Translations under genes and position numbers: made by a program
Part shown: piece by piece, positions 4,381 to 15,568 of the stretch
Position numbering within the stretch: the first letter of the stretch is position 1
How the letters are laid out: every line of letters starts with the position of its first letter
Notes under the pieces: generated by a model
What the model saw: only the letters and a program-made list of their open reading frames with translations
What the model was told of the DNA's origin: nothing
The model's database searches: none
Assembly: GCA_948759685.1 (NCBI GenBank)
Contig: CAQBGY010000047.1
Span: 1-15,568 of the forward strand
DNA: 15,568 bases
Source: an uncultured Eubacterium sp.
Lineage (GTDB): Bacteria; Bacillota_A; Clostridia; Lachnospirales; Lachnospiraceae
Direction: 5' to 3'

Positions 4381-4592
4381 TTAAAACTAAATATAATAAA
4401 GTATTCTTGATAGAAATTAATATATCATAAATATTTACATTATATATCTGTTTTATATACAGAATTTCTTACAAAAATCCTATTTTTAGAGGAAATTTTT
4501 ATTAACTATTAAATTTATATTAAACTATCATTCCCTACCAAAATCCCCATTTTACGCAATCTATCAAACCCATTACATCATCAAATCAACCA
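4381..4592. other. AT-rich gene-free stretch; left boundary zone of the mobile element
   Basis: No open frame with a ribosome binding site is visible. The left half is extremely AT-rich (runs such as AATTAATATATCATAAATAT) and becomes more C-rich from about 4530 towards the integrase. Tyrosine-integrase elements of the Tn916 type prefer such AT-rich targets and leave only short coupling bases, so no long direct repeat is expected. I could not find a convincing duplicate of any part of it near 9487-9530. Confidence 0.35.
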
Positions 4593-4593
4593 T

Positions 4594-4640
4594 TTTCCCT
4601 TGTTTTTGCCCTCATAGGACCAAAACAAGGGAAAGTTTTT
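4594..4640 (+). terminator. strong hairpin with T-run reading towards the integrase 3' end
   Basis: Perfect 13-bp arms, TTTCCCTTGTTTT (4594-4606) and AAAACAAGGGAAA (4622-4634), are separated by a 15-base loop. G and five T follow on the plus strand at 4636-4640, where the last bases overlap the integrase stop codon. The T-run is only on the plus-strand side, so this would stop transcription entering from the host flank at left rather than end the integrase message. It may also be part of the element end. Confidence 0.6.
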
Positions 4641-5936
4641 AATTACCGCCCACCACCTTATCCAAAAGCCTTGCGGAAGTCCGTTTCGCCTCTCTGGTGG
4701 CATGGGCATAAACATTCATTGTGGTACTTACATCAGAGTGTCCCAGAAGTTCCTGCACATCTTTCGGGGCTGCCCCGTTTGATAACAGATTGCTCGTATA
4801 GGTGTGCCGCAACTGGTGGAAGTGGAAATTTTCAAGCCCCTCTATGTGTTTCTGAATCAGCCTGCATACATTGGAGAGGGTTGCGGTTGATTCATAGAAA
4901 CCATCCTGACGTAAACATACAAAAGACAGTTCTTCGTAATCGTCCGGTATCTCCTCCGTACTTTGCAAAGAATACAGATCATAATGCGTCCTTCCCTTTT
5001 CCATTACTTTCTGATAGTAATTGCGGAAATACATTTCGCCACACTGGAAACGCTCTCTGTGCTGTTGCTTTCTGGCTTTTTTTAGTATCTCTGCCAGTGT
5101 GTCGCAGAAGTCCACTGTACGGATTTTTTCCGCTTGGTTGCACCGATTTCCATCTTGTGGCGGGTGGCATTGTAACGCATACTCCGGCGGACGGTAAGAT
5201 ACTGTTCCTCAAGGTTGATGTCCTGCCATGCCAGCCCGCATACCTCGCCAATGCGTAATCCAGTATAATAGGCTATCTGCACCGGCAGGAGTGCCGGATT
5301 TCTTTTTTTACGGAGATAATCCGTTATCTCCGTGTACTGCTCATGGGTAATGGTCGGGATGTCTGTCTCATTTTCCGCATTTCCCTCAAACAGTTCCACT
5401 TCCTCCTTTTTTACCCGCATGCGTACATACTGCATGGGATTAAAAGTAATATAGCGTTTCGGGAATACCGCAAACCGGAACGAGCCCCGCAGGACTGCCG
5501 AAAACTGGAGCATATAGTTTTTACTGATGGGCTGAGCCTCCTTTCCGTCCGGTCTTGTTCCTCCAAAAGACAGGAAATCAATATACTCCTGTAAATGGTC
5601 GGCAGTTATGCTTTTCAGCTTACGCTGTCCGATAGGATGTTTCTTAATCTGTCTGGCGGTAGTGGTATAGGCAATCAGCGTCCCAGTGCTTAATGTACCG
5701 GGCTTTACTTCTTCCTCCAGCCATATATCCAGCATTTCCCCCAGCGTGATATTTTCCGTCTTTGCCACAAACTTCTTTTCCTCGTAATCCTCCATTGCCT
5801 TGCGGAGAAGTTTCTCCGTTTCTGACTTGCTCTCTGTTCCTGCGTACTCCTTCTGCACCAGATTTCCGCTCTCATTCTCCACATAAAAGCGGTAGTACCA
5901 TTTCTTTCCTTTTTTTCTTACAGAACCTTTTGCCAT
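4639..5936 (-). pseudogene. int: tyrosine recombinase/integrase of the mobile element, broken by a 1-base frameshift
   Basis: A Tn916-like integrase split into two frames. The first part (ATG at 5936, ribosome binding site AAAGGAG just upstream) has an arm-binding N-terminus (residues 1-55, SVRKKGKKWYYRFYV), a SAM-like core-binding domain (60-175) and the start of the catalytic domain with R228 in YTGLRIGEVCG. After KRKKS the frame slips to a stop. The correct frame resumes at RTVDFCDTLAEIL and carries HFHQLRHTYTS (HxxR), GHSDVS and the nucleophile tyrosine in NVYAHA, ending at 4639. Restoring one base next to the A6 run (T6 on the plus strand, 5124-5129) would give 432 residues, a normal family length with all catalytic residues. 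The second part has no ribosome binding site of its own. Either a real inactivating deletion, a sequencing error, or rescue by slippage on A6. It reads away from the repressor and lies at the element end, as usual for int. Confidence 0.85.
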
Positions 5937-6039: not shown

Positions 6040-6654
6040 TCACAAGGAATGTTCACTCAGAAGATTTTTCAGCCTCGTCCTCGCAAGTTCCGGCTGTTTG
6101 GCATACACCCTTACAATGTCGCTGATTTCACTCGTGCTGTTGATGAAACGCATAACCTCCCGCAGAAACATGACGTTGTTAAACTCCTGTTCAGATTCAA
6201 ATCCCATGACCTTTGACATTGCCTCATTGAAATCCCCGCCCTTACCATACTCTTTAGCCGCATGGGTAAAAGACTGGTTAAACATACGGTACTCATAAAG
6301 GAACAAAAGCAGCAAATCCTTTGAGAAATCGCTTTCTTCCTCTTTCATGTCAAGCGGGAAATCGCCCATTATCCGGCTCATGGCGGATTCAATCTTAAAA
6401 TCCCTGCTGTCCGACATATCCGCCCCCATATCCTCTGTTTCGCCCCGGAGCCATGCCGCTGATACATGAAGTGCATCCGCTAATCCCTCAACAATCAGTT
6501 TCTTTGTGTTGTCAATGCTCCCATTCTCATACCGCTGGATGGTGGTCTTGTTCACGTCCATCTGTCCGGCAACATACTGGAGGGGGAGTTTCAGCGACTT
6601 GCGGCGTTGTTTCGCCCGTTCACCGATTGTCCTGCGAAGTTCTTTCTTCTCCAT
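6040..6654 (-). CDS. XRE-family transcriptional repressor of the mobile element
   Basis: A 204-residue cytoplasmic regulator. Residues 5-65 are a Cro/C1-type helix-turn-helix domain (RTIGERAKQRRKSLKLPLQY, VAGQMDVNKTTIQRYENGS, then ADALHVSAAWLRG). Residues 75-204 form an acidic, helical C-terminus that I do not recognise, probably for dimerisation or for sensing an inducing signal. The ATG at 6654 has a GGAGG box (6659-6663, minus strand). It is divergent from the excisionase-like gene and shares with it a 220-base control region holding two 13-bp palindromes on the two promoters. The arrangement is that of a phage-like or ICE-like master repressor that keeps its own promoter and the xis promoter down. 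No metallopeptidase motif (HExxH) is present, so it is not an ImmR/ImmA fusion. Confidence 0.85.
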   Translation of the reverse strand: MEKKELRRTIGERAKQRRKSLKLPLQYVAGQMDVNKTTIQRYENGSIDNTKKLIVEGLADALHVSAAWLRGETEDMGADMSDSRDFKIESAMSRIMGDFPLDMKEEESDFSKDLLLLFLYEYRMFNQSFTHAAKEYGKGGDFNEAMSKVMGFESEQEFNNVMFLREVMRFINSTSEISDIVRVYAKQPELARTRLKNLLSEHSL

Positions 6655-6730: not shown

Positions 6731-6759
6731 ATAATAACACACAAAAACAGATATTGCAA
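6731..6759 (-). promoter_or_regulatory. repressor-gene promoter
   Basis: Minus strand: TTGCAA (-35, 6754-6759), 17-base spacer, TATTAT (-10, 6731-6736), about 75 bases before the repressor ATG. The -35 overlaps the first TTGCA-N3-TGCAA palindrome, which is what autorepression would look like. Confidence 0.6.
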
Positions 6760-6766
6760 TATGCAA
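6754..6766. promoter_or_regulatory. operator copy 1 (TTGCA-N3-TGCAA)
   Basis: TTGCAATATGCAA, a perfect 5+5 palindrome with 3-base centre, placed on the -35 of the repressor promoter. An identical pair of arms recurs at 6832-6844. A 13-bp palindrome of this size suits a Cro/C1-type dimer. Confidence 0.6.
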
Positions 6767-6789
6767 AATAGAAATAACCGCAAAAGGAC

Positions 6790-6818
6790 TTGACAAAACC
6801 ATCGTATTTATTTATTAT
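6790..6818 (+). promoter_or_regulatory. promoter of the excisionase-like gene
   Basis: Consensus TTGACA (6790-6795), exactly 17 bases, TATTAT (6813-6818). A transcript would start near 6825 and run through the small leader frame at 6877 into the excisionase-like gene. Operator copy 2 sits immediately after the predicted start. Confidence 0.75.
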
Positions 6819-6831
6819 GTATTTTACAGCG

Positions 6832-6844
6832 TTGCATAATGCAA
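6832..6844. promoter_or_regulatory. operator copy 2 (TTGCA-N3-TGCAA)
   Basis: TTGCATAATGCAA, with the same arms as the palindrome at 6754-6766. It lies about 8-20 bases downstream of the expected start of the rightward transcript, a position suited to blocking initiation or early elongation. Confidence 0.6.
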
Positions 6845-6876
6845 TATTGTAAACCAACAAGAAAGGGGATACGGAT

Positions 6877-6960
6877 ATGAGCAGGAATGAAAATGCAGGA
6901 AAAACAGGTTATCGGAAAAGAGGGAGGATATTTGTATGGCAGAGATTAAGATTGGAATGA
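6877..6960 (+). CDS. possible 27-residue leader peptide overlapping the excisionase-like gene
   Basis: ATG at 6877 follows GAAAGGGGAT at a usable distance and opens a 27-codon basic frame beginning MSRNENAGKTGYRKRGR. Its stop at 6958-6960 lies 25 bases inside the next gene in another frame, so it could couple translation to that gene. No known family is recognised. The coding claim rests only on the ribosome binding site and position, so it may be mere untranslated leader. Confidence 0.35.
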   Translation: MSRNENAGKTGYRKRGRIFVWQRLRLE

Positions 6961-7154
6961 CGATAGAGGAAGCGTCCGAATATACGGGCATTGGCAGGAA
7001 CACCATGCGGAAACTGGTGGAATGGGAGAAAATCCCGGTGCTGCGGATTGGACGGAAAGCAATCATACGCAGGGATGTGCTGGAGAGGTTTATGGCAGCA
7101 AATGAGGGGAAAGACCTGCGGAACCGCCCGGAAGTAAAAACTGTCCGGACATGA
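6936..7154 (+). CDS. xis: excisionase-like HTH DNA-binding protein
   Basis: A 72-residue protein with a MerR-like/excisionase winged helix-turn-helix over residues 7-55: MTIEEASEYTGIGRNTMRKL followed by RIGRKAIIRRDVLERFM. This is the usual pattern of Tn916-type Xis proteins, which bend DNA at the element ends and turn the integrase reaction towards excision. Length is normal for the family. The start is set by GGGAGG eight bases before ATG at 6936. It is transcribed away from the repressor from a consensus promoter at 6790-6818 and followed by a hairpin terminator at 7242-7264. The context with int and a relaxase supports the role; a general small transcription factor is the alternative. Confidence 0.8.
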   Translation: MAEIKIGMTIEEASEYTGIGRNTMRKLVEWEKIPVLRIGRKAIIRRDVLERFMAANEGKDLRNRPEVKTVRT

Positions 7155-7178: not shown

Positions 7179-7193
7179 CCATTGGCAATCAGA

Positions 7194-7232
7194 CCGGAGT
7201 CTTGATATACCTACACGCAAGATAAGTGTATC
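7194..7232 (+). repeat. inverted repeat copy B flanking the repressor-xis block
   Basis: Plus strand CCGGAGTCTTGATATACC then TACACGCAAGATAAGTGTATC matches copy A (5990-6031, opposite strand) nearly base for base. Its inner arms GATATAC and GTGTATC still pair despite differences from copy A, because the changes compensate. Confidence 0.65.
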
Positions 7233-7241
7233 ACAGACTTC

Positions 7242-7264
7242 TCCGGTTATCAACCGGAATTTTT
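7242..7264 (+). terminator. rho-independent terminator downstream of xis
   Basis: TCCGGTT (7242-7248), loop ATC, AACCGGA (7252-7258), then ATTTTT. A compact perfect 7-bp stem with a T-run that would end the rightward xis transcript before the heptamer array. Its left arm could alternatively pair with the CCGGAG at 7194-7199. Confidence 0.65.
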
Positions 7265-7282: not shown

Positions 7283-7565
7283 GGTGTAGTTTTGGTGTAG
7301 CAATGGTGTAGATTTTTTCTACACCGTTCCTACATCATTTTTTGAAATACTACACCATTCCTGCATCATTTGGGGCAAAGCCTACATCAAAACTACACCA
7401 TGACAGGGGAATCAATGGGAAAAGTGCCTGCACCTCTGCCTGCACTCTGCCCGCACCCAAATTAGGGGAAACAGACAGGTGCCTGCACCTGTGCCGGTAC
7501 TTATGAAGATTATGCAGTTACTTATGCCTGCACCTGTAGGCAGTATGCTTACACCATGCTGGCAC
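7283..7565. repeat. phased heptamer array (CTRCAYC / GRTGYAG)
   Basis: GGTGTAG occurs at 7283, 7294 and 7305 (11-base period). The complement CTACACC/CTACATC/CTGCATC then follows in pairs at 7319+7330, 7350+7361 and 7382+7393 (11 bases within pairs, 20-21 between). A GC-richer set continues at 7428 CTGCACC, 7440 CTGCACT, 7451 CCGCACC, 7483 CTGCACC, 7494 CCGGTAC, 7528 CTGCACC, 7549 TTACACC and 7559 CTGGCAC. The spacing keeps the copies on one face of the helix. This looks like iterons or recombinase arm sites; no replication initiator gene is present. Confidence 0.7.
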
Positions 7566-7692
7566 TTATGTTTATCCGCAGTATTTTACTTTGGCAGAAT
7601 ACAGGTCAGCGGCAGATGGTTTCTCCGGCAGGCAAAATAACAGGCAAAAGCTGGATATACACCCGCTTGAACAAGCCCCCGGCAGGGCTCCC

Positions 7693-7755
7693 GCATTTTT
7701 GGCTTGACAAAAATGCTAGGGGGTTATCATTATCGGCAGAGCCGAAATGATAACC
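7693..7755. other. tandem hairpins upstream of the relaxase: oriT candidate
   Basis: Hairpin 1: GCATTTTTG (7693-7701), 6-base loop, CAAAAATGC (7708-7716), perfect. Hairpin 2: GGTTATCATTATCGGC (7722-7737), loop AGA, GCCGAAATGATAACC (7741-7755), perfect apart from one bulged A, and flanked by GGGG/CCCC. A TTGACA (7704-7709) with TATCAT (7725-7730) at a short 15-base spacing overlaps both and may be the relaxase promoter. MobV plasmids usually have oriT with inverted repeats just ahead of mob and overlapping its promoter, so position and form both fit. The nick site cannot be read. Confidence 0.55.
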
Positions 7756-7878
7756 GCACCCCGCCACGTTCCCATCAGCCCAAAGGAAAATCGGAGACGT
7801 AAAATGATTGATAAGGAAACCAGCCGGAAAGGAAATGACAAATAAGAAAAAAATTCCTCCGGCAGAGAGGGGGATGTG

Positions 7879-9486
7879 ATGAATGAAGTATCATACAGTG
7901 CCCATATCAGCAACGGGAAAAGTGCCCTCAACAGCAAAGGCAGGCTGTCCGGTGTGGCAAAACACAACCTGCGGAAATACCGTTCCAAAGAGTATGACAG
8001 GGAGAACATTGTCCTGCTCTTTGGCAGTACAAATCTTATGCGGGATGTGAAAAAAGTCTATCAGGACACTTTTTCAGAAGCACTGGAGCAGTATAACCAA
8101 AAACAGACAAGGGCAGACCGACGGATTGACGATTATTTTGAACATCTGTCCGGCAAGAACCAAGACATGGCAGTGGAGATTATTTTCCAGTGCGGGGATA
8201 AGGATTTCTGGGAAGATGTCTTTATGGAAACAGATAAGGAAAAGCAAAACAAAGAAAATATCTGCAAGGTATATGACACCTTACTGGAGCAGTTGCAGAA
8301 AGAAATGCCGGATTTCAAAGTTGCAAATGCGGTAGTCCACTTTGATGAAGCAAGCCCGCATATGCACGTTGTAGGCGTTCCCATAGGCAGGGGATTTAAG
8401 CGCGGGCTGGAAACAAAGGTTTCCAAACGCTCTGTTTTCACTCCGAAAACGCTGGAGAATATTTTACAGAACAGCCTGCGTCAGACCGCAAGCGTAGAAA
8501 TGCTTATCCACTTCGGAGTGCTTGTAAAAGATAAGCAGAAAGGGAAAAACTATGACCTGACCGTTGCGGAATATAAGGTGCAGCAGGAAACGAAGCGGCT
8601 GGAAATGGTGGCGGGATTCCTTGAAGAAAAACAGGACAGGCTTTTTAATGACAACCAACGTCTGGAACAGGCAGAAAAAGAAGTTTCCGAAGCAGAACGG
8701 CGGTTGTCTGACACGAAAACAGAGATTATCGGAGCAGAGGAAGATTTGATACAGATAAAAACAGAAGGCAGGGAAATGAAACAAAAACTGATGGCAGAAC
8801 AGGAGGAAATACGGCAGGAAAATTTGTCCTTAAAAACAGATACGCTTATCCTTCATTCTGATAAAGAGCGTCTTTTGCGTGATGTCAGGAAAGCAACAGA
8901 TGAAAAGGAACAAATACAGGTAAAAAAAGAGGGGTTTTTAGAGGATATCGGTGTGTTGGATAAAGAGTTTGAAAAGCGTCTGGATTTCATCAACGTACTG
9001 GATAAACTCAAAGCACTCTTTTATAAGCTGTTATCCATGATTCCGCTGGTGCGGGAGTTTGCAAAGTTTGTAGAAGAAAAAAAGGATATACGGGCCGCCT
9101 CCCCTTATAGCTATACCCCTCTCGGCAGGCTGTTAAGGGAGTACCATACCTCTCTCCCTCAGCATGACAGGCTTGTCACGTTCCCGGAGATTGCCTCGTG
9201 GCAGACTTCCACAGGGGAAGTGGTTCCGGTGTATGAGGACTATAACGGACGGGGAACGGAGTACAGGCTGGCGGGATTCTGGAATGTGCAGAAGGAACAG
9301 GCTGTAAAGGTTTCTGAAATAAGAGAGGAAATCATGCCGGAGAACCGGATATGTACGTTAGAGCTGGCAGAGGTGTATGTAAAGGCGGTGGAGAGTTTCA
9401 TGGAGGATATGGAACCGGAAGAACGTACAAGGGAGAACCGTCCTATGTATCAGAGACAAAACGAGGAATATATACAGGTCAGATAA
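7879..9486 (+). CDS. mobV: MobV-family relaxase (plasmid mobilization/recombination protein)
   Basis: A 535-residue relaxase that would nick the element at oriT and pilot the strand during conjugation using another element's transfer machinery. Motif I appears as AKHNLRKYRSKEYDREN, with the HNxR histidine (about residue 29) corresponding to the catalytic histidine of pMV158 MobM. Motif III is VVHFDEASPHMHVVGVP at about residues 152-168, the HxDE...PHxH metal-binding signature. Residues 235-350 are a charged coiled coil (QDRLFNDNQRLEQAEKEVSE). The remaining C-terminus is not recognised. GAGGGGG (7867-7873) lies 5 bases before ATG 7879; a GTG immediately before it (7876) is too close. Followed by a hairpin terminator at 9501-9532. 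It lies at the right end of the element. No transfer-channel genes are present, so transfer would depend on a helper. Confidence 0.93.
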   Translation: MNEVSYSAHISNGKSALNSKGRLSGVAKHNLRKYRSKEYDRENIVLLFGSTNLMRDVKKVYQDTFSEALEQYNQKQTRADRRIDDYFEHLSGKNQDMAVEIIFQCGDKDFWEDVFMETDKEKQNKENICKVYDTLLEQLQKEMPDFKVANAVVHFDEASPHMHVVGVPIGRGFKRGLETKVSKRSVFTPKTLENILQNSLRQTASVEMLIHFGVLVKDKQKGKNYDLTVAEYKVQQETKRLEMVAGFLEEKQDRLFNDNQRLEQAEKEVSEAERRLSDTKTEIIGAEEDLIQIKTEGREMKQKLMAEQEEIRQENLSLKTDTLILHSDKERLLRDVRKATDEKEQIQVKKEGFLEDIGVLDKEFEKRLDFINVLDKLKALFYKLLSMIPLVREFAKFVEEKKDIRAASPYSYTPLGRLLREYHTSLPQHDRLVTFPEIASWQTSTGEVVPVYEDYNGRGTEYRLAGFWNVQKEQAVKVSEIREEIMPENRICTLELAEVYVKAVESFMEDMEPEERTRENRPMYQRQNEEYIQVR

Positions 9487-9500
9487 ATAATTCCGTTGTT

Positions 9501-9597: not shown

Positions 9598-9633
9598 TGG
9601 TTCATACAAAAAAAACAAAGGAGTGTGTTCAAT

Positions 9634-10485
9634 ATGAAAAAATTTACTATGATTGCAACCGTTTTTACACTTATGACAGGGGTATTGACAGGATGTAGCG
9701 GCAATGCTGGTTCGTTCACTGACAAAAGTACAGCAAATGAGACAACTAAGAGTTCACAAACAATAGCCACCGACGGTTCCACTTCAATGGAGAAAGTCAT
9801 TGGATTTTTGAGTGAAGCCTATATGGAGGAACATGGAAATATAAAGGTTACATACAATCCAACGGGTTCTAGTTCCGGTATACAGGCAGTAGCGGAAGGA
9901 AGATGTGATATCGGACTGGCAAGTCGTGACCTGAAGGAAGATGAAACAGCAGATTTACAGGGAACGGTAGTTGCCATTGATGGAATCGGAATCATAGTCA
10001 ATCCTGATAATCCGGCAACAGATTTAACAATTGATCAGATAGGGAAGATTTACAGTGGTGAGATTACCAACTGGAAAGAGGTTGGCGGCAGCGACGCACC
10101 GATTGTCTGTATTGGGCGTGAGGCGGCTTCTGGCACAAGAGACGGTTTTGAGGAAGTGACAGGCACAAAGGATAAATGCAAGTATTCACAGGAACTTACG
10201 TCTACGGGCGATGTCGTGCAGACGGTATCCGGCAATCCAAATGCCATTGGCTATGCATCGGTTGCCTCGGTTGGTGATACGGTAAAGATGGTCAGCGTGG
10301 AAGGGGTAAGCCCGACAACAGAAAGTATTCAGGATGGGAAATACAAAGTCCAGAGAAACTTCGTGCTGGTCACAAAAAAGGACACTGCTCTTTCTAAAGC
10401 TGCACAGGAGTTTTTCGACTTCGCTACCAGCGAACAGGCAGACAGCCTTATTACAGAGGCAGGTGCTGTTCCTGTCAAACGGTAA
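9634..10485 (+). CDS. pstS: phosphate ABC transporter substrate-binding lipoprotein
   Basis: A 283-residue surface lipoprotein that captures phosphate and passes it to PstCA. MKKFTMIATVFTLMTGVLTG then C21 is a lipoprotein signal peptide with lipobox LTGC. The PBP-like fold shows the phosphate-contact loops: ATDGSTSMEKV (45-55), NPTGSSSGIQAV (75-86) and GREAASGTRDGF (161-172). Start chosen at ATG 9634 because AAAGGAG (9617-9623) is 10 bases before it; the GTG at 9625 is almost on top of the ribosome binding site. First gene of the pst operon, 18 bases ahead of pstC, behind a Pho box. Confidence 0.95.
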   Translation: MKKFTMIATVFTLMTGVLTGCSGNAGSFTDKSTANETTKSSQTIATDGSTSMEKVIGFLSEAYMEEHGNIKVTYNPTGSSSGIQAVAEGRCDIGLASRDLKEDETADLQGTVVAIDGIGIIVNPDNPATDLTIDQIGKIYSGEITNWKEVGGSDAPIVCIGREAASGTRDGFEEVTGTKDKCKYSQELTSTGDVVQTVSGNPNAIGYASVASVGDTVKMVSVEGVSPTTESIQDGKYKVQRNFVLVTKKDTALSKAAQEFFDFATSEQADSLITEAGAVPVKR

Positions 10486-10502
10486 TTACAGGAGGGGCTG
10501 TT

Positions 10503-11375
10503 ATGGAAAAGATAAAAAAGACAGCAAGGTGGATGGAAAGGGCAATGAACTTGTTGTTTTTGGTATGCGGTCTGCTGACGATACTGTTTGTCGTCCTAAT
10601 TACTATATTTCTCTTGATAAGCGGCATTCCGGCAATACGGGATATCGGTCTGGGAGATTTCCTGTTTGGGAAGGTCTGGGCATCTACTTCTGCAAAGCCT
10701 TCCTATGGAATCCTTCCCTTTATCCTGACATCCGTATACGGAACTCTGGGGGCAATCCTCATAGGAGTTCCGATTGGACTGCTATGTGCTATTTTTCTGG
10801 CAAAGATGTCCCCAAAGAAAGTTAGCAGTGCAGTAAGGAATGTGGTAGATTTGCTTGCAGGAATCCCGTCTGTCGTTTATGGGCTGGTGGGAATGATCAT
10901 CATTGTTCCATGCGTAAGGGAGATATTTCATCTCCCGGATGGTGCAAACCTCTTTTCGGCAATTCTTGTCCTTGCTGTTATGATTCTGCCCTCTGTCATT
11001 TCCGTATCGGAAACGGCAATCGGGGCGGTGCCAAAGGAATATGAGGAGGCTTCTCTTGCTCTGGGGGCGACAAAGACGGAAACCGTATTTAAGGTGGTTG
11101 TGCCTGCCGCAAAAAGCGGCATTGTCACTGCGGTTGTATTAGGCATTGGCAGGGCAGCCGGGGAAGCGATGGCGGTTATGATGGTAGCGGGAAATGTTGC
11201 CAATATGCCGAAACTGTTTGGCAGCGTCCGGTTTCTGACTACTGCTGTTGCCAGTGAAATGTCCTATTCTTCCGGCTTACAGAGACAGGCATTATTTTCC
11301 ATCGCACTGGTGCTTTTTCTGTTCATTATGGCAATTAACCTGATATTAAATGTAGTAATTAAAAAAAAGGTTTGA
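10503..11375 (+). CDS. pstC: phosphate ABC transporter permease PstC
   Basis: A 290-residue inner-membrane permease with about six transmembrane segments (17-40, 72-98, 114-136, 150-168, 205-230, 263-286). The cytoplasmic EAA loop that docks the ATPase is visible at about 174-201 (GAVPKEYEEASLALGATKTE). Length and order are normal. AGGAGGGG lies just before the ATG. It should form the translocation pore with PstA. A 99-base spacer containing two tandem hairpins separates it from pstA, the longest gap in the operon. Confidence 0.95.
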   Translation: MEKIKKTARWMERAMNLLFLVCGLLTILFVVLITIFLLISGIPAIRDIGLGDFLFGKVWASTSAKPSYGILPFILTSVYGTLGAILIGVPIGLLCAIFLAKMSPKKVSSAVRNVVDLLAGIPSVVYGLVGMIIIVPCVREIFHLPDGANLFSAILVLAVMILPSVISVSETAIGAVPKEYEEASLALGATKTETVFKVVVPAAKSGIVTAVVLGIGRAAGEAMAVMMVAGNVANMPKLFGSVRFLTTAVASEMSYSSGLQRQALFSIALVLFLFIMAINLILNVVIKKKV

Positions 11376-11453
11376 AGTTCCACTATTGCATGAAAATACC
11401 ATGCCAAGTGGAACTAAGGCAAACCTATCAAGAACGCAAAAACAGCGTTCTTG
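11376..11453 (+). repeat. two tandem perfect hairpins between pstC and pstA
   Basis: Hairpin 1: AGTTCCACT (11376-11384) with AGTGGAACT (11407-11415), with inner arms GCATG/CATGC. Hairpin 2: CAAGAACGC (11429-11437), loop AAAAACA, GCGTTCTTG (11445-11453). Neither ends in a T-run. They probably tune message stability or translation of the downstream genes. Confidence 0.6.
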
Positions 11454-11474
11454 AGGAAAATGGAGGAAATACAT

Positions 11475-12338
11475 GTGACTGATACAATATCAAAAGCAAG
11501 AAAAATTAAGGATACTATCTTAAAGCTGATGATGGTTTTATCAGCAGGATTGATTTGCTCTCTCCTGCTCGGACTGATTGGATATATCCTGTACCGGGGC
11601 ATTCCACATATCTCATGGATGCTTGTTTCTACGAAACCAAGCCTTTTGCGTGGTACGGTCGGGATTCTGCCAAACATCCTGAATACCTTATATATCATTA
11701 TCATAACGCTTGTAATTGTACTGCCGCTTGGGGTAGGGGCTGCGATTTATCTGAACGAATATACAAAGAATAAAAAACTGGTACGGGTCATTGAACTGGC
11801 AACAGAAACCCTTGCCGGAATCCCATCAATTATATATGGACTGGTGGGAATGCTCCTGTTTGTGCAGTTTTTCTCTCTGGGAACCAGTCTGATGGCCGGT
11901 TCGCTCACCCTGGCAATCATGACATTGCCCACGATTATACGCACCACACAGGAAAGCCTGAAAACGGTGCCAAAAGCATACCGGGAAGGTTCGCTTGGAT
12001 TAGGGGCAGGCAAATGGTATATGATTCGTACAGTTGTCATTCCCTGTGTCATTGATGGGATTGTTACCGGCTGTATCTTATCGGTGGGCAGAGTGGTAGG
12101 TGAAAGTGCCGCACTTCTCTTTACGGCAGGGATGGCAAATGAACTGCTGTCCGTACCAGAGGCAGTGCAGGCGGGAAATGCGGGTTCTACCCTGACCGTT
12201 GCCATGTATGTATATGCGAAAGAGCGCGGGCAGTTTGATGTTGCGTTTGCGGTTGCCGCTATATTGCTTGTACTTACCTTTCTTATCAATATGTCGGCAA
12301 AGATAGCGGCGGTTAGACTGAAACAGAAACGAGGTTAA
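11475..12338 (+). CDS. pstA: phosphate ABC transporter permease PstA
   Basis: A roughly 287-residue membrane permease, partner of PstC. Segments such as [20 protein letters not shown] and [20 protein letters not shown] are clearly membrane spanning, and the EAA loop reads [23 protein letters not shown] 11475 is preferred because GGAGG (11462-11466) stands 8 bases before it. ATG 11460 and TTG 11451 are in frame upstream but have poor ribosome binding sites, and TTG 11451 lies in a hairpin arm. Followed 4 bases later by pstB. Confidence 0.92.
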
Positions 12339-12342
12339 AGTT

Positions 12343-13095
12343 ATGGAACACATTATCACGACAAAGAATTTAAACTTATGGTATGGTGCGAGCCATGCCC
12401 TGAAAAGTATCAACATGGAAATCCCGGAAAAGAAAATCACTGCGCTGATTGGCCCCTCTGGCTGTGGAAAATCCACTTATCTGAAAACATTGAACCGGAT
12501 GAATGATTTGGTGGAAAGCTGCCGTATCGAAGGAGAAATTATGCTTTCCGGCATTGACATTTACAAGGGGATTGATGTAAACATTTTGCGGAAACGTGTT
12601 GGCATGGTCTTTCAAAAACCGAATCCGTTTCCAATGAGTATTTATGATAATATTGCCTATGGTCCAAGAATACATGGAATCAAATCAAAGGTTAAGTTGG
12701 ATGAAATCGTGGAGCGTTCCCTGACGCAGGCGGCAATCTGGGAGGAATGCAAAGACCGTTTGAAAAAGAGTGCATTGGGCATGAGTGGCGGCCAGCAGCA
12801 GAGGCTCTGCATTGCAAGGGCACTGGCGGTAGAGCCGGAAGTCCTTCTGATGGATGAACCGACGTCTGCCCTTGACCCTATTTCCACTTCAAAGATTGAA
12901 GATTTAGCAATGGAACTGAAGGAAAAATATACGATTATTATGGTAACCCACAATATGCAGCAGGCAGTGCGGATTGCAGATAAGACAGCATTCTTCCTGC
13001 TGGGCGAGGTGGTGGAGTTTGATGATACGCAGACCATGTTCTCCACACCGTCTGACCAGAGGACAGAGGATTATATTACAGGGAGGTTTGGATAA
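12343..13095 (+). CDS. pstB: phosphate ABC transporter ATP-binding protein
   Basis: A 250-residue cytoplasmic ATPase that powers phosphate import. All motifs are present: Walker [10 protein letters not shown] (37-45), Q-loop [16 protein letters not shown] with Q91 (the FPMSIYDN run is typical of PstB), signature MSGGQQQR (147-154), Walker [13 protein letters not shown] (167-178) and the H-loop histidine H203. It is complete and of normal length. Its stop codon overlaps the phoU start by one base (TAATG), implying translational coupling. Confidence 0.97.
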
Positions 13096-13778
13096 TGCGG
13101 AATAAATTTGACAGACAGTTATCGCAGCTTAATACAGAACTTGTTACCATGGGAGCCTTATGCGAGGAGGCAATTACCAATGCGGTAAAATATCTTACGG
13201 ATAATGAAGAAAACAGCAAAAATATGTGTCTGGATGCGGATACGCAGATTGATAAAAAAGAGCGTGATATCGAAACCCTCTGCCTGAAACTGATTTTGCA
13301 GCAGCAGCCCGTGGCAAAAGATTTGAGAGTTGTTTCAGCCGCTTTGAAAATGATATCCGATATGGAACGGATTGGAGATCAGGCATCGGATATTGTGGAG
13401 ATTGCACCTTATGTGGCAAAAAAGGGAACGCTTGGCGAAACCCATATCCGGGAAATGGCAGAAGCAGCGATCAAAATGGTGTCAGAAAGTATTGAATCTT
13501 TTGTAAAAATGAATCTGGATATTGCCTGGCTGGTAATTGAACATGATAATATCGTGGATGATTTATTTGACAAGGTAAAGCGGGAGTTGATAAAATCAAT
13601 AACGGAGAGACACGACGATGCGGAGGCTCTTATGGATTTGCTGATGATTGCAAAATATTTTGAGCGGATTGGCGACCATGCAGAAAATATTGCGGAATGG
13701 GTTATTTATTCCATTACCGGAGAGCATCGGAAAAGACCTGAAAATAAGGAAAGCTCCACCAAAGGAGGAATCGGTTAA
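13095..13778 (+). CDS. phoU: phosphate signalling protein PhoU
   Basis: A 227-residue all-helical cytoplasmic protein made of two PhoU repeats (about 17-104 and 119-204). Each repeat carries the metal-site helix: ISDMERIGDQASDIVE and AKYFERIGDHAENIAE. It relays the state of the Pst transporter to the PhoR kinase, keeping the Pho response off when phosphate is plentiful. GGGAGG (13081-13086) inside the end of pstB serves as ribosome binding site. The protein appears intact. Confidence 0.95.
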   Translation: MRNKFDRQLSQLNTELVTMGALCEEAITNAVKYLTDNEENSKNMCLDADTQIDKKERDIETLCLKLILQQQPVAKDLRVVSAALKMISDMERIGDQASDIVEIAPYVAKKGTLGETHIREMAEAAIKMVSESIESFVKMNLDIAWLVIEHDNIVDDLFDKVKRELIKSITERHDDAEALMDLLMIAKYFERIGDHAENIAEWVIYSITGEHRKRPENKESSTKGGIG

Positions 13779-13779
13779 C

Positions 13780-14457
13780 ATGATTTATCTGCTGGAAGAT
13801 GATGATAATATAAGAAAGCTGGTATGCTATGCGCTGTCAAAAGAGGGATTTGAAGTACAGGGGCATTCTTCTCCAAAGGAATTTTGGCAGGGACTAAATA
13901 CGGAACTGCCGGAATTGGTTTTGCTGGATATTATGCTGCCGGAAGAAGACGGGTTGTCGATTCTTAATAAACTGAAAGGTAATGCAGCGACTGCGCATAT
14001 CCCTGTGATTATGCTTACCGCAAAGGGCAGTGAATTTGATAAGGTCACAGGCCTTGATATGGGAGCGGATGATTACGTGGCAAAGCCTTTTGGAACGATG
14101 GAACTGATTTCAAGGATCCGGGCGGTACTGAGGCGTTCCCAAAAAACGCAGGATGACAGAACGTATACGATTGGCGGGCTGTATGTTAATCCTGCAAAAC
14201 ATATTATTACGGTATCAGGGGAAGCGGTATCGCTTTCCTATAAGGAATATCTGCTGTTGATGGTTTTGCTGGAGGCAGAGGGCAATGTAGTGGAACGTGA
14301 CAGGCTTTTAACCAGTGTCTGGGGGGAATATTATACAGAATCCCGGACGCTGGATGTGCATATCCGGAAACTGCGGGTAAAACTGGGGGATGCCGGAAAA
14401 CTCATTCAGACTATAAAAGGAATCGGTTATAAATTAGGAGGCGATTGGAATGAATAA
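13780..14457 (+). CDS. phoP: PhoP/PhoB-type phosphate response regulator
   Basis: A 225-residue OmpR-family regulator. The receiver domain (1-118) has the acidic pair in LEDDDN, the phosphoacceptor D50 in LVLLDIMLP, the switch threonine in IMLTAKG and the lysine in DDYVAKPF. The winged-helix DNA-binding domain (about 130-222) contains VVERDRLLTSVWG and TLDVHIRKLRVKLG. AAAGGAGGAA lies 9 bases before ATG 13780, which overrides longer in-frame starts inside phoU. It ends in a short overlap with phoR. It should bind the Pho box at 9531-9581. Confidence 0.93.
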   Translation: MIYLLEDDDNIRKLVCYALSKEGFEVQGHSSPKEFWQGLNTELPELVLLDIMLPEEDGLSILNKLKGNAATAHIPVIMLTAKGSEFDKVTGLDMGADDYVAKPFGTMELISRIRAVLRRSQKTQDDRTYTIGGLYVNPAKHIITVSGEAVSLSYKEYLLLMVLLEAEGNVVERDRLLTSVWGEYYTESRTLDVHIRKLRVKLGDAGKLIQTIKGIGYKLGGDWNE

Positions 14458-15568
14458 AAAAATTTTTCGTTCGTCACTGCTTACCGTCTGTCTTGTATTG
14501 GCAGCTACCATTGCATTGATTATGGGGCTTTTGTTTCATTTTTTTGAAAAGCAGATACAGAAAGAGCTTGCCAATGAGGCCGGCTTTCTGGCACATGCTC
14601 TTGAAAATGAGGGAGCCGGATATTTTGACAGTTTTGATAACAAGAATAACAGACTTGCCGGAAATAACCGTATCACATGGATTGATGAAAATGGAACGGT
14701 ATTGTTCGACAGCAGGGCAGATGTGTCCGAACTGGATAATCATGCCGACAGGGATGAAATTAAAACGGCAATGAAAGAGGGGAAGGGCATGAGTACGAGG
14801 TACTCCAAAACCCTGACGGAAAAAACAGTGAATTATGCCATACGGCTTTCCGATGGCAGCATACTGCGGGTTTCGACAGAACAGTATACGGTAGTAACCA
14901 TTCTGATTGGGATGCTTCAGCCGATTTTATTCATTATGTTTGTCGCATTGATTTTAACACTGGTGCTTTCCGCAAGGGTATCAAAAGCCATTATAGAACC
15001 AATTAACAAACTGGATTTGGAAATACCGGAAAATAATGACACATATGAGGAATTAACACCTCTGTTACGGAAAATTGCAGACCAGAAAGAAACGATAGGG
15101 GAACAGCTTGCGGACGCCCGCAAAAAACAGAAAGAATTTAACCTTATTACAGAAAATATGAGTGAGGGCTTTCTGGTTATTGATGCAGACGCCAATCTCC
15201 TGACCTATAATTCTGCCGCATTAAACCTGCTTGAGATTACCCCTCCGGCAGACAGGAGTGTCCTGCTGTTCTGCCGGGCAAAAGAGTTCAGAGGCGTTAT
15301 ATCCGATGTATTGTCAGGAATAAAGGCAGAGAATACGATGGTGCGGGAGGAACGCAGTTACAGTCTGATTGCCAATCCGGTTTATGAGAAGGAATCCGTA
15401 ATTGGGGCCGTTGTGGTTATTCTGGATATTACGGAACGTGAAAAAAGGGATATGCTGCGCCGAGAGTTTACGGCAAATGTTTCCCATGAACTGAAAACTC
15501 CGCTGACGTCTATCTCTGGGTGCGACGTGAAGTCGCTTAATTTAACTGTTTGGCGGACTATCCGACCA
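14450..15568 (+). CDS. phoR: PhoR-type sensor histidine kinase, 5' exon, interrupted near the window end
   Basis: The coding frame begins at ATG 14450, overlapping the phoP stop, with AGGAGG at 14437-14442, and runs to the window edge. TM1 is at residues 8-30, an extracytoplasmic sensor at 31-145, TM2 at 149-174. A linker follows, then a PAS domain from about 229 (NLITENMSEGFLVIDADANL). The start of the HisKA domain is REFTANVSHELKTPLTSISG, with phosphoacceptor H346. After G357 the expected kinase sequence (Y..) is replaced by CDVKSLNLTVWRTIRP, which is not kinase-like. The nucleotides at that point, from 15520, read GTGCGAC, the canonical 5' end of bacterial group II introns. The real exon therefore seems to end at 15519 and the rest of the kinase (dimerisation helix 2 and ATPase domain) lies downstream of the window. 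Confidence 0.88.
   Translation, partial: MNKKIFRSSLLTVCLVLAATIALIMGLLFHFFEKQIQKELANEAGFLAHALENEGAGYFDSFDNKNNRLAGNNRITWIDENGTVLFDSRADVSELDNHADRDEIKTAMKEGKGMSTRYSKTLTEKTVNYAIRLSDGSILRVSTEQYTVVTILIGMLQPILFIMFVALILTLVLSARVSKAIIEPINKLDLEIPENNDTYEELTPLLRKIADQKETIGEQLADARKKQKEFNLITENMSEGFLVIDADANLLTYNSAALNLLEITPPADRSVLLFCRAKEFRGVISDVLSGIKAENTMVREERSYSLIANPVYEKESVIGAVVVILDITEREKRDMLRREFTANVSHELKTPLTSISGCDVKSLNLTVWRTIRP
15520..15568 (+). mobile_element. 5' end of a group II intron inserted in phoR
   Basis: Starting exactly where the kinase similarity stops, the sequence opens with GTGCGAC, matching the GUGYG 5' consensus of group II introns. The first bases fold as a hairpin, GCGAC-GTGAA-GTCGC (15522-15536), as expected for the start of domain I. 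The intron is in the same orientation as phoR, so splicing would join the exons after SISG within a glycine codon (GG|N). Only 49 bases are visible, so the intron-encoded protein and 3' end are not seen. Confidence 0.7.

Follow-up and report, generated by a model that had tools for sequence, protein, structure and literature searches.

Gene content of the element and structure of the heptamer array

The window, by which we mean the whole 15,568-nucleotide stretch of DNA analysed, carries a mobilizable element that combines a Tn916-type int-repressor-xis module with a MobV relaxase (Table 1). The two pieces of the integrase match a single frame in the related locus L027. Between the divergent repressor and xis genes there are two palindrome-like, operator-like TTGCA..TGCAA sites (6750-6860). 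The hairpin just downstream of xis has the loop CCTACACGCAAGA and recurs at this place in related elements that have other relaxases, of three kinds by eye. Between xis and the MobV oriT-like block lies the feature under study, an array of short repeats. We assign the block as a putative oriT from its conservation; it also precedes mobV in MobV relatives of 38-43% identity. An Rfam search of the window returned nothing at the gathering threshold.

Table 1 Features of the mobilizable element in the window
Feature	Position	Strand	Remarks
Element left end	4512..4516	.	point where homology between insertions in different genomes begins
Tyrosine integrase	4639..5936	-	split in the window between two ORFs that overlap (4639-5115, 5082-5936)
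HTH_3 repressor-like gene	6040..6654	-
xis	6936..7154	+	HTH_17, Tn916-Xis
Hairpin just 3' of xis	7188..7257	+	conserved; outside the array; includes CCTACACG
Exact heptamer starts	7283, 7294, 7305, 7319, 7330, 7350, 7361, 7382, 7393, 7428, 7483, 7528		the first three are GGTGTAG
Series A, first part	7283..7311	-	three GGTGTAG at steps of exactly 11 bases; the minus strand reads CTACACC
Series A, second part	7319..7399	+	six CTACAYC/CTGCATC arranged as three pairs, with a step of 11 bases inside each pair and of 20-21 from pair to pair
Series B	7428..7555	+	GC-rich CTGCACY, reading GTGCAGGCA on the opposite strand; six copies, three of them exact and three with one mismatch
oriT-like block, 5' of mobV	7690..7755	+	CTAGGGGGTTATCAT...ATGATAACC
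mobV relaxase gene	7876..9486	+	PF01076; NF041497 match below its cut-off

From mobV through the pst/pho operon genes (9625-15519, assigned by eye from the list of open reading frames), DNA identity amounts to ~99% in many relatives from several Lachnospiraceae genera, to 97.6% in L030 and to 90-93% in L032; the element, earlier assumed to end near 9500, is thus longer here. In L033-L037, homology to the window ends at or before ~9487 and no pst/pho genes stand beside mobV. Since these genes are common to many relatives but missing in that group, they are probably cargo of part of the family. The window breaks from its kin at 15519, within a sensor-kinase gene, beyond which two relatives (G001, G197) have 2109 further bases in common and a third (G196) diverges after 681. 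The last ~50 bases of the window match several other places in G196, so a repetitive insertion seems to be present at 15519-15568.

No rep-like gene was seen in the list of open reading frames, in a Pfam scan of the five element genes or, reading by eye in the kin, in the part beyond the window. Neither parM nor parR was seen among the open reading frames of the element. Iterons for a Rep of the element's own were rejected as a reading of the array because no rep gene was seen.

The array comprises 12 exact CTRCAYC/GRTGYAG heptamers in 7283-7565. Dinucleotide shuffling of these 283 bases, repeated 2000 times, yields 0.25 such heptamers on average and never more than 4. When no motif is presupposed, the commonest 6-mer is present in 7 copies, against at most 5 in the shuffles (n=2000). 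Phasing was expressed as the vector strength at the best period between 10 and 12 and compared, for the window array, with 2000 random placements. The 12 exact copies reach a vector strength of 0.82, which was equalled in 1 of the 2000 placements. The first-pass annotation had named 17 copies; 15 of them stand, the 12 exact ones and three with one mismatch (7440, 7451, 7549), whereas those at 7494 and 7559 are not within one mismatch, and the phasing of the 15 was matched by none of the placements. The shuffled sequences, which that annotation had proposed as a possible refutation, did not reproduce the copy count, nor did the random placements reproduce the phasing, and both the three GGTGTAG at an exact 11-base period and the orientation flip between 7311 and 7319 were found as described. 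Its further statement that all copies lie on about one face of the DNA holds inside each series: the phasing of the six CTACAYC-type copies alone was matched in 1 of 2000 random placements (best period near 10.5) and that of the six GC-rich copies alone in 5 of 2000 (near 11). Across both series it is less exact.

Occurrence of the array in related mobilizable elements and in ICEs

The array likewise sits between xis and the relaxase gene in other elements, whether the relaxase is MobV or a different one. The heptamers of the first part of series A are largely retained in L003, L037, L093 and L280. L093 and L280, which retain series A, have CTATATC-type units where the window has series B, and L033 has series B as its only series; judged from these sequences, the two series are separate units. 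The array is absent from the sister elements L034 and L036, whose Int is 91-94% similar, and is thus accessory, the element being able to do without it. As L034 and G455:C6 (L056) are one locus, these array-less relatives represent two genomes, not three; G198 and G455 were likewise treated as one genome. In L097, short TGCGACGG repeats and inverted copies, perhaps one more kind of array, follow another gene upstream of the MobV oriT-like block.

These comparisons bear on the suggestion that the repeats are arm-type sites for the element's own Int and Xis. In its favour, the N-terminal part of Int is 93-98% conserved among array-bearing elements, in which Int is otherwise only ~70% alike. However, the array lies ~2.8 kb from the left end, near which no motif cluster was found (the right end falls outside the window), the two sister elements combine a similar Int with the lack of an array, and the same motif recurs in an ICE, L135, described below. 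The distance from the left end and the array-less sisters make arm sites unlikely, and we give this reading hardly any credence.

Conservation was compared between heptamer and linker positions in a MAFFT alignment, with five relatives tested. The heptamers were significantly more conserved in L037 (59/63 against 42/54, p=0.016) and L280 (61/63 against 38/54, p=7e-5); the difference was not significant in L003 (51/56 against 34/41), L093 (51/56 against 43/51) or L030 (62/63 against 51/54). L032, aligned outside the significance test, gave 54/56 and 48/50. The expected excess conservation of heptamers over linkers thus appeared in two of the five relatives tested and, as the aligner may favour repeats, is modest evidence. 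The same figures enter on both sides of the argument over whether the array could be a non-functional minisatellite or act as an RNA-level structure, series A being able to fold back on itself. The inverted halves of series A pair over 18-24 bases, the homology gaps between repeats in L028 and L040 resemble deletions, and the heptamers do not rise significantly above the linkers in three of the five relatives, all of which would suit such a reading. Against it speak the better conserved heptamers of L037 and L280, the single orientation of series B, and the resemblance of the steps in the window to those of one-orientation arrays in ICEs. We regard it as improbable.

To locate the heptamers elsewhere, 397 genomes of the bacterial family were scanned with the pattern CTACAYC-N4-CTACAYC-N8..30-CTACAYC, its reversal serving as control. 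The pattern matched five genomes and the control none. Two of the five (G001, G455) carry the window's kind of element, and in G483 the match lies near a contig end. The match in G411 (L125:1360-1580) was discarded as a different 11-base repeat (CACTGCGCTGT) between apparently chromosomal genes (by eye). The remaining one, in G386, is the ICE L135, from the same bacterial family as the window's element, which encodes ParM (PF17989, actin-like), immediately followed by a ParR-like gene, as well as RadC, a Toprim/DUF3991 primase, MobC, a relaxase and VirD4. Its array consists of 15 GRTRTAG, all in one orientation, between the stop of the Toprim primase and an oriT-like block, and lies ~8 kb away from parMR. 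The steps in this array are 11, 21-22 and 32; those in L275, L126 and L276 follow an 11,21,11,21,11,33-like order, and the CT copies of the window one of 11,20,11,21,11. In L276 (G526), a ParR-like gene ends ~0.6 kb before an array of this kind.

A pattern scan of viral contigs yielded 18 stretches, all scored by motif count, of which five, L201, L204, L207, L209 and L213, were inspected. Two of them, L213 and L209, which belong to one contig, resemble a coding repeat and were dropped. At L207:10900-11200, a phage-type GGTGTAGGG/CTACACC array directly follows a gene that reads as a primase-helicase (by eye), and is possibly a phage origin with a similar heptamer.

We then followed the array site across ICE-type loci, namely every listed Toprim relative of at least ~49% identity with a long enough contig (18 loci), L135, and two further loci from genomes carrying MobV relatives, 21 in total; the sample is almost wholly one of this ICE family and of Toprim relatives above that identity. 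The loci were examined among the Toprim matches L223-L241, with G226:C28, G226:C39 and G238:C84 added and G041:C25 included. In all 21, which are not all independent (the arrays of L253, L254 and L256 are nearly alike), an array lies directly before the oriT-like block, and the ICE arrays directly follow the Toprim gene. The summed repeated 6-mers exceeded all 200 shuffles in every one of the 21 gaps, narrowly so in L262 (15 vs 13), and the best single 6-mer did so in 19, the exceptions being L156 and L267. In L267 the Toprim gene has an in-frame stop, and the oriT-like block was missed by the pattern, so that 300 bases were taken instead. By eye, ~15 array classes can be told apart at this site, including GGGGGC, GGATTAA, GGGTGCA, CAACTGA, GGTAGT, GTGACGCA, GGCGTCA, TGAGTGA, TGGTATGA, TTTACAGTAAA, AAGTAGGAAACCTACTTA, GATATAG and GGTGTAG. 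VirD4 was seen in only some of the ICE-type stretches retrieved, and inspection by eye of five ICE loci revealed no array upstream of parM. Toprim relatives of 36-43% identity (L237, L239-L241) have no such array; L238 ran off its contig.

The position directly after the Toprim gene, together with the phage contig L207, could point to the iterons of a replication origin, at which an initiator, primase or helicase supplied in trans (the ICE Toprim or a phage-type primase-helicase) would start replication or second-strand synthesis. This has to be set against the 70-80% identity of Toprim between ICEs with different arrays, the failure to see either a rep or a primase gene in the window's element, and the open reading frame before the array of L276, which does not read as a primase (by eye). 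An origin is in our view quite unlikely.

Candidate readers of the array class

ParR could be extracted from 14 of 19 loci, and over these 14 we calculated rank correlations between protein similarity and array similarity. The values were 0.48 for the ParR N-terminus and 0.41 for whole ParR (91 pairs), 0.43 for RadC (78 pairs), 0.40 for Toprim (66 pairs, without two Toprim proteins), 0.37 for ParM (91 pairs), and 0.29 for both MobC (91 pairs) and p182 (78 pairs). Because related ICEs have everything in common, the correlations alone do not single out ParR.

Pairs of near relatives are more telling. L135 and L275, whose arrays are GGTGTAG and GATATAG respectively, have tblastn identities of 95% for MobC, 92 for ParM, 87 for the relaxase, 84 for VirD4, 80 for Toprim, 78 for RadC, 72 for p182 and 49 for ParR; their DNA identity falls at parR and the array, and also at 6200-6500 and 7400-8400. 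Between L155 and L216, which have unrelated arrays, the figures are 86% for MobC, 80 for RadC, 70 for Toprim, 62 for ParM, 42 for p182 and 36 for ParR, while L216 and L264, with arrays alike, have a ParR identity of 70%. The ParR-like protein is thus the most diverged of the compared proteins where near relatives differ in array class. MobC N-termini are closely similar in L253, L261, L262, L265 and L267 despite different arrays. Both MobC and Toprim were set aside as array binders, as they stay similar while the arrays switch. The protein p182 also evolves fast, but is an unlikely binder given its acidity (pI 4.4-5.0 in seven ICEs) and its conservation between L135 and L275. Since the arrays switch with ParR while MobC and Toprim stay similar, ParR appears to be the best candidate reader of the array.

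The tested ParR-like proteins scored above the cut-off of no family model. Their alignment, used as a profile against solved structures, produced no significant match, and informative source names were absent from the best 120 matches in each list. In the corresponding search, the ParM-like protein matched ALP12 (4apw, E 4.5e-6). The predicted model of ParR is poor (pLDDT 54.5), with helices compatible with a ribbon-helix-helix layout, and we infer such a fold for the N-terminus.

The adjacency of the arrays to oriT, itself assigned from conservation, also suits a different role. The TraM sites of F are an example of sites for a transfer accessory protein, and the array might similarly bind an accessory protein that links the relaxosome with the coupling protein, with partition playing no part; mobilizable elements would then copy the repeats in order to be recognized by the secretion system of their helper. 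The site before the oriT-like block in all 21 ICE-type loci fits such docking, as does the location between xis and the relaxase gene in mobilizable elements. So do two plasmid precedents: the R388 stbDRs, whose operon lies beside oriT and whose bound protein acts on both stability and transfer (described in PMC3098194), and R1, in which ParM and ParR are reported to stimulate the relaxase and transfer (PMC4949242). Yet MobC, which is the known accessory protein in these ICEs, changes little where the arrays switch, and the gene for the candidate binder lies next to that for an actin-like ParM. We consider docking without partition unlikely, if still worth serious attention.

A candidate parC-like site and its possible helper ICEs

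To compare the two kinds of element directly, ten mobilizable-type regions, chosen by eye, were matched by shared repeated 6-mers against 20 ICE-type arrays (19 gaps and G483; L275 and L279 were outside this set). For nine of the ten, the best ICE-type match, a match of motifs only, exceeded the maximum of 200 shuffles. The window and L135 share 24 (null maximum 6), L037 and L135 41 (6), L103 and L260 37 (4), L035 and L257 18 (7), L093 and G483 66 (20), and L033 and L264 7 (3); the best match of L012 is marginal (13 vs 11) and that of L060 does not exceed the shuffles (3 vs 3). G483, the genomic context of which is incomplete, provides the best match of both L093 and L003. Series B seems to have no clear ICE counterpart among the arrays compared, L033-L264 being the case in point. 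As the window, L003, L037, L033 and L093 are related, the independent cases number only about four: the window lineage with L135/G483, L103 (a MobV locus whose element kind is not established) with L260, L035 with L257, and L057/L012 with L258.

Co-residence provides a second comparison. Both arrays could be read in four genomes. In G526, the ICE-type array near a ParR-like gene (L276) and the mobilizable element L280 have the same heptamer classes. The classes differ in G001 (ICE L216), in G517 (ICE L275, element L032), where the difference is only that of GGTGTAG vs GATATAG, and in G523 (ICE L279, element L040), so co-residence backs borrowing in one genome of the four. No second cluster of the motif was found in G001, G196, G197, G018, G039 or G455. 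Across 19 genomes with MobV relatives, a strong match to the ParR of L275 was present in two and a weak one in two.

The reading we favour, while placing it slightly below an even chance, is that the array is a parC-like site which the small element has borrowed from helper ICEs, and by which it may use the DNA-sorting machinery of larger self-transmissible elements. Among the roles listed in the first-pass annotation, a partition-type site is thus preferred, arm sites being unlikely and iterons for an own Rep unsupported. The array would be a parC-like centromere that the mobilizable element does not serve itself, copied from the oriT-proximal array of ICEs that encode ParM and ParR and come from the same bacterial family. 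There, a ParR-like protein would bind the helically phased repeats beside oriT and connect the excised ICE circle with ParM filaments, perhaps with the transfer channel as well. The ParR of a co-resident ICE would also load onto the array of the mobilizable element, whose excised circle would be partitioned or delivered to the mating apparatus, with the ICE bearing the cost. Series A would answer to the GGTGTAG class of L135, and series B may answer to another class. ParR binding, partition, the effect on transfer and the borrowing from a helper are all steps that we infer.

Measured against known ParMRC systems, the array has the several short, class-specific repeats in helical phase expected of a parC (phasing being tested on the window array). 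The C. perfringens parC sites described in PMC9426499 offer a close likeness: ParR proteins bind short repeats, and class-specific ParR-parC pairs differ in sequence and spacing between similar conjugative elements, the specificity families being tied to incompatibility. The parC of R1, as cited there, has 11-bp repeats. Unlike in ParMRC systems, the window's mobilizable element has no parMR, although parM and parR both occur in ICE-type loci with arrays. Position differs as well: parC usually lies upstream of parM, whereas the ICE array is at the oriT-like block, which in L135 sets it far from parMR, unlike the R1 type.

Repeats near oriT are also described in two other systems. SXT/R391 ICEs have a ParM-like/ParR-like pair, and the centromere-like srpC is placed in the srpM-mobI intergenic region that also contains oriT; SrpR, too, is unlike known ParR in sequence (PMC4489591). 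According to the same source, srpC differs from the arrays here in having four 13-bp repeats upstream of srpM, and belongs to Gammaproteobacteria. The stbDRs of R388 consist of 9-bp repeats in two sets of five, with two bases between repeats and hence an 11-base period; as described in PMC3098194, StbA differs from the present case in not being a ParR and in having no actin-like ATPase, and the sets flank the stb promoter.

For the borrowing itself, the nearest parallel is SGI1, a mobilizable element with copies of its helper's centromere-type sites: these parS mimics bind the ParB of the IncC helper, so that SGI1 uses the helper's partition system, is stabilised and destabilises the helper (PMC10954446). 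A par-less element with sites matching those of a helper is also what we see in the window, in the sense of a motif match only. SGI1/IncC differs in being a type I ParB/parS system of Gammaproteobacteria shown by experiment (PMC10954446), whereas here the context is actin-type ParM/ParR and the 11-bp-phased heptamer arrays by oriT come in many classes and are interpreted from sequence. We found no description of this array type or of its ICE counterpart in the open-access literature searched, and a review refers to the maintenance of excised mobilizable elements as an 'unexplored world' (PMC5704250).

Some mobilizable elements have composite arrays, with GGTGTAG and GTGCAGGCA in the window, GGTGTAG and GATATAG in L093 and L280, and TCAACTG and TGATAGT in L057. 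One could speculate, though we hold it doubtful, that in such gut Lachnospiraceae elements each class was taken over from another ICE partition class, namely from its oriT-side centromere. If so, several mutually compatible ICE families could sort one and the same element, and perhaps dock it for transfer, and the element could destabilise each of them; the ~15 ICE array classes would represent an escape from hijacking and from one another. If the borrowing holds, the system would parallel, in Gram-positive bacteria, the theft of the IncC partition system by SGI1, and a single homologous locus would offer ~15 natural specificity pairs of ParR and site. Array class and ParR class would then form a code, readable from sequence, that predicts which conjugative elements can carry or sort which mobilizable elements in the gut microbiota.
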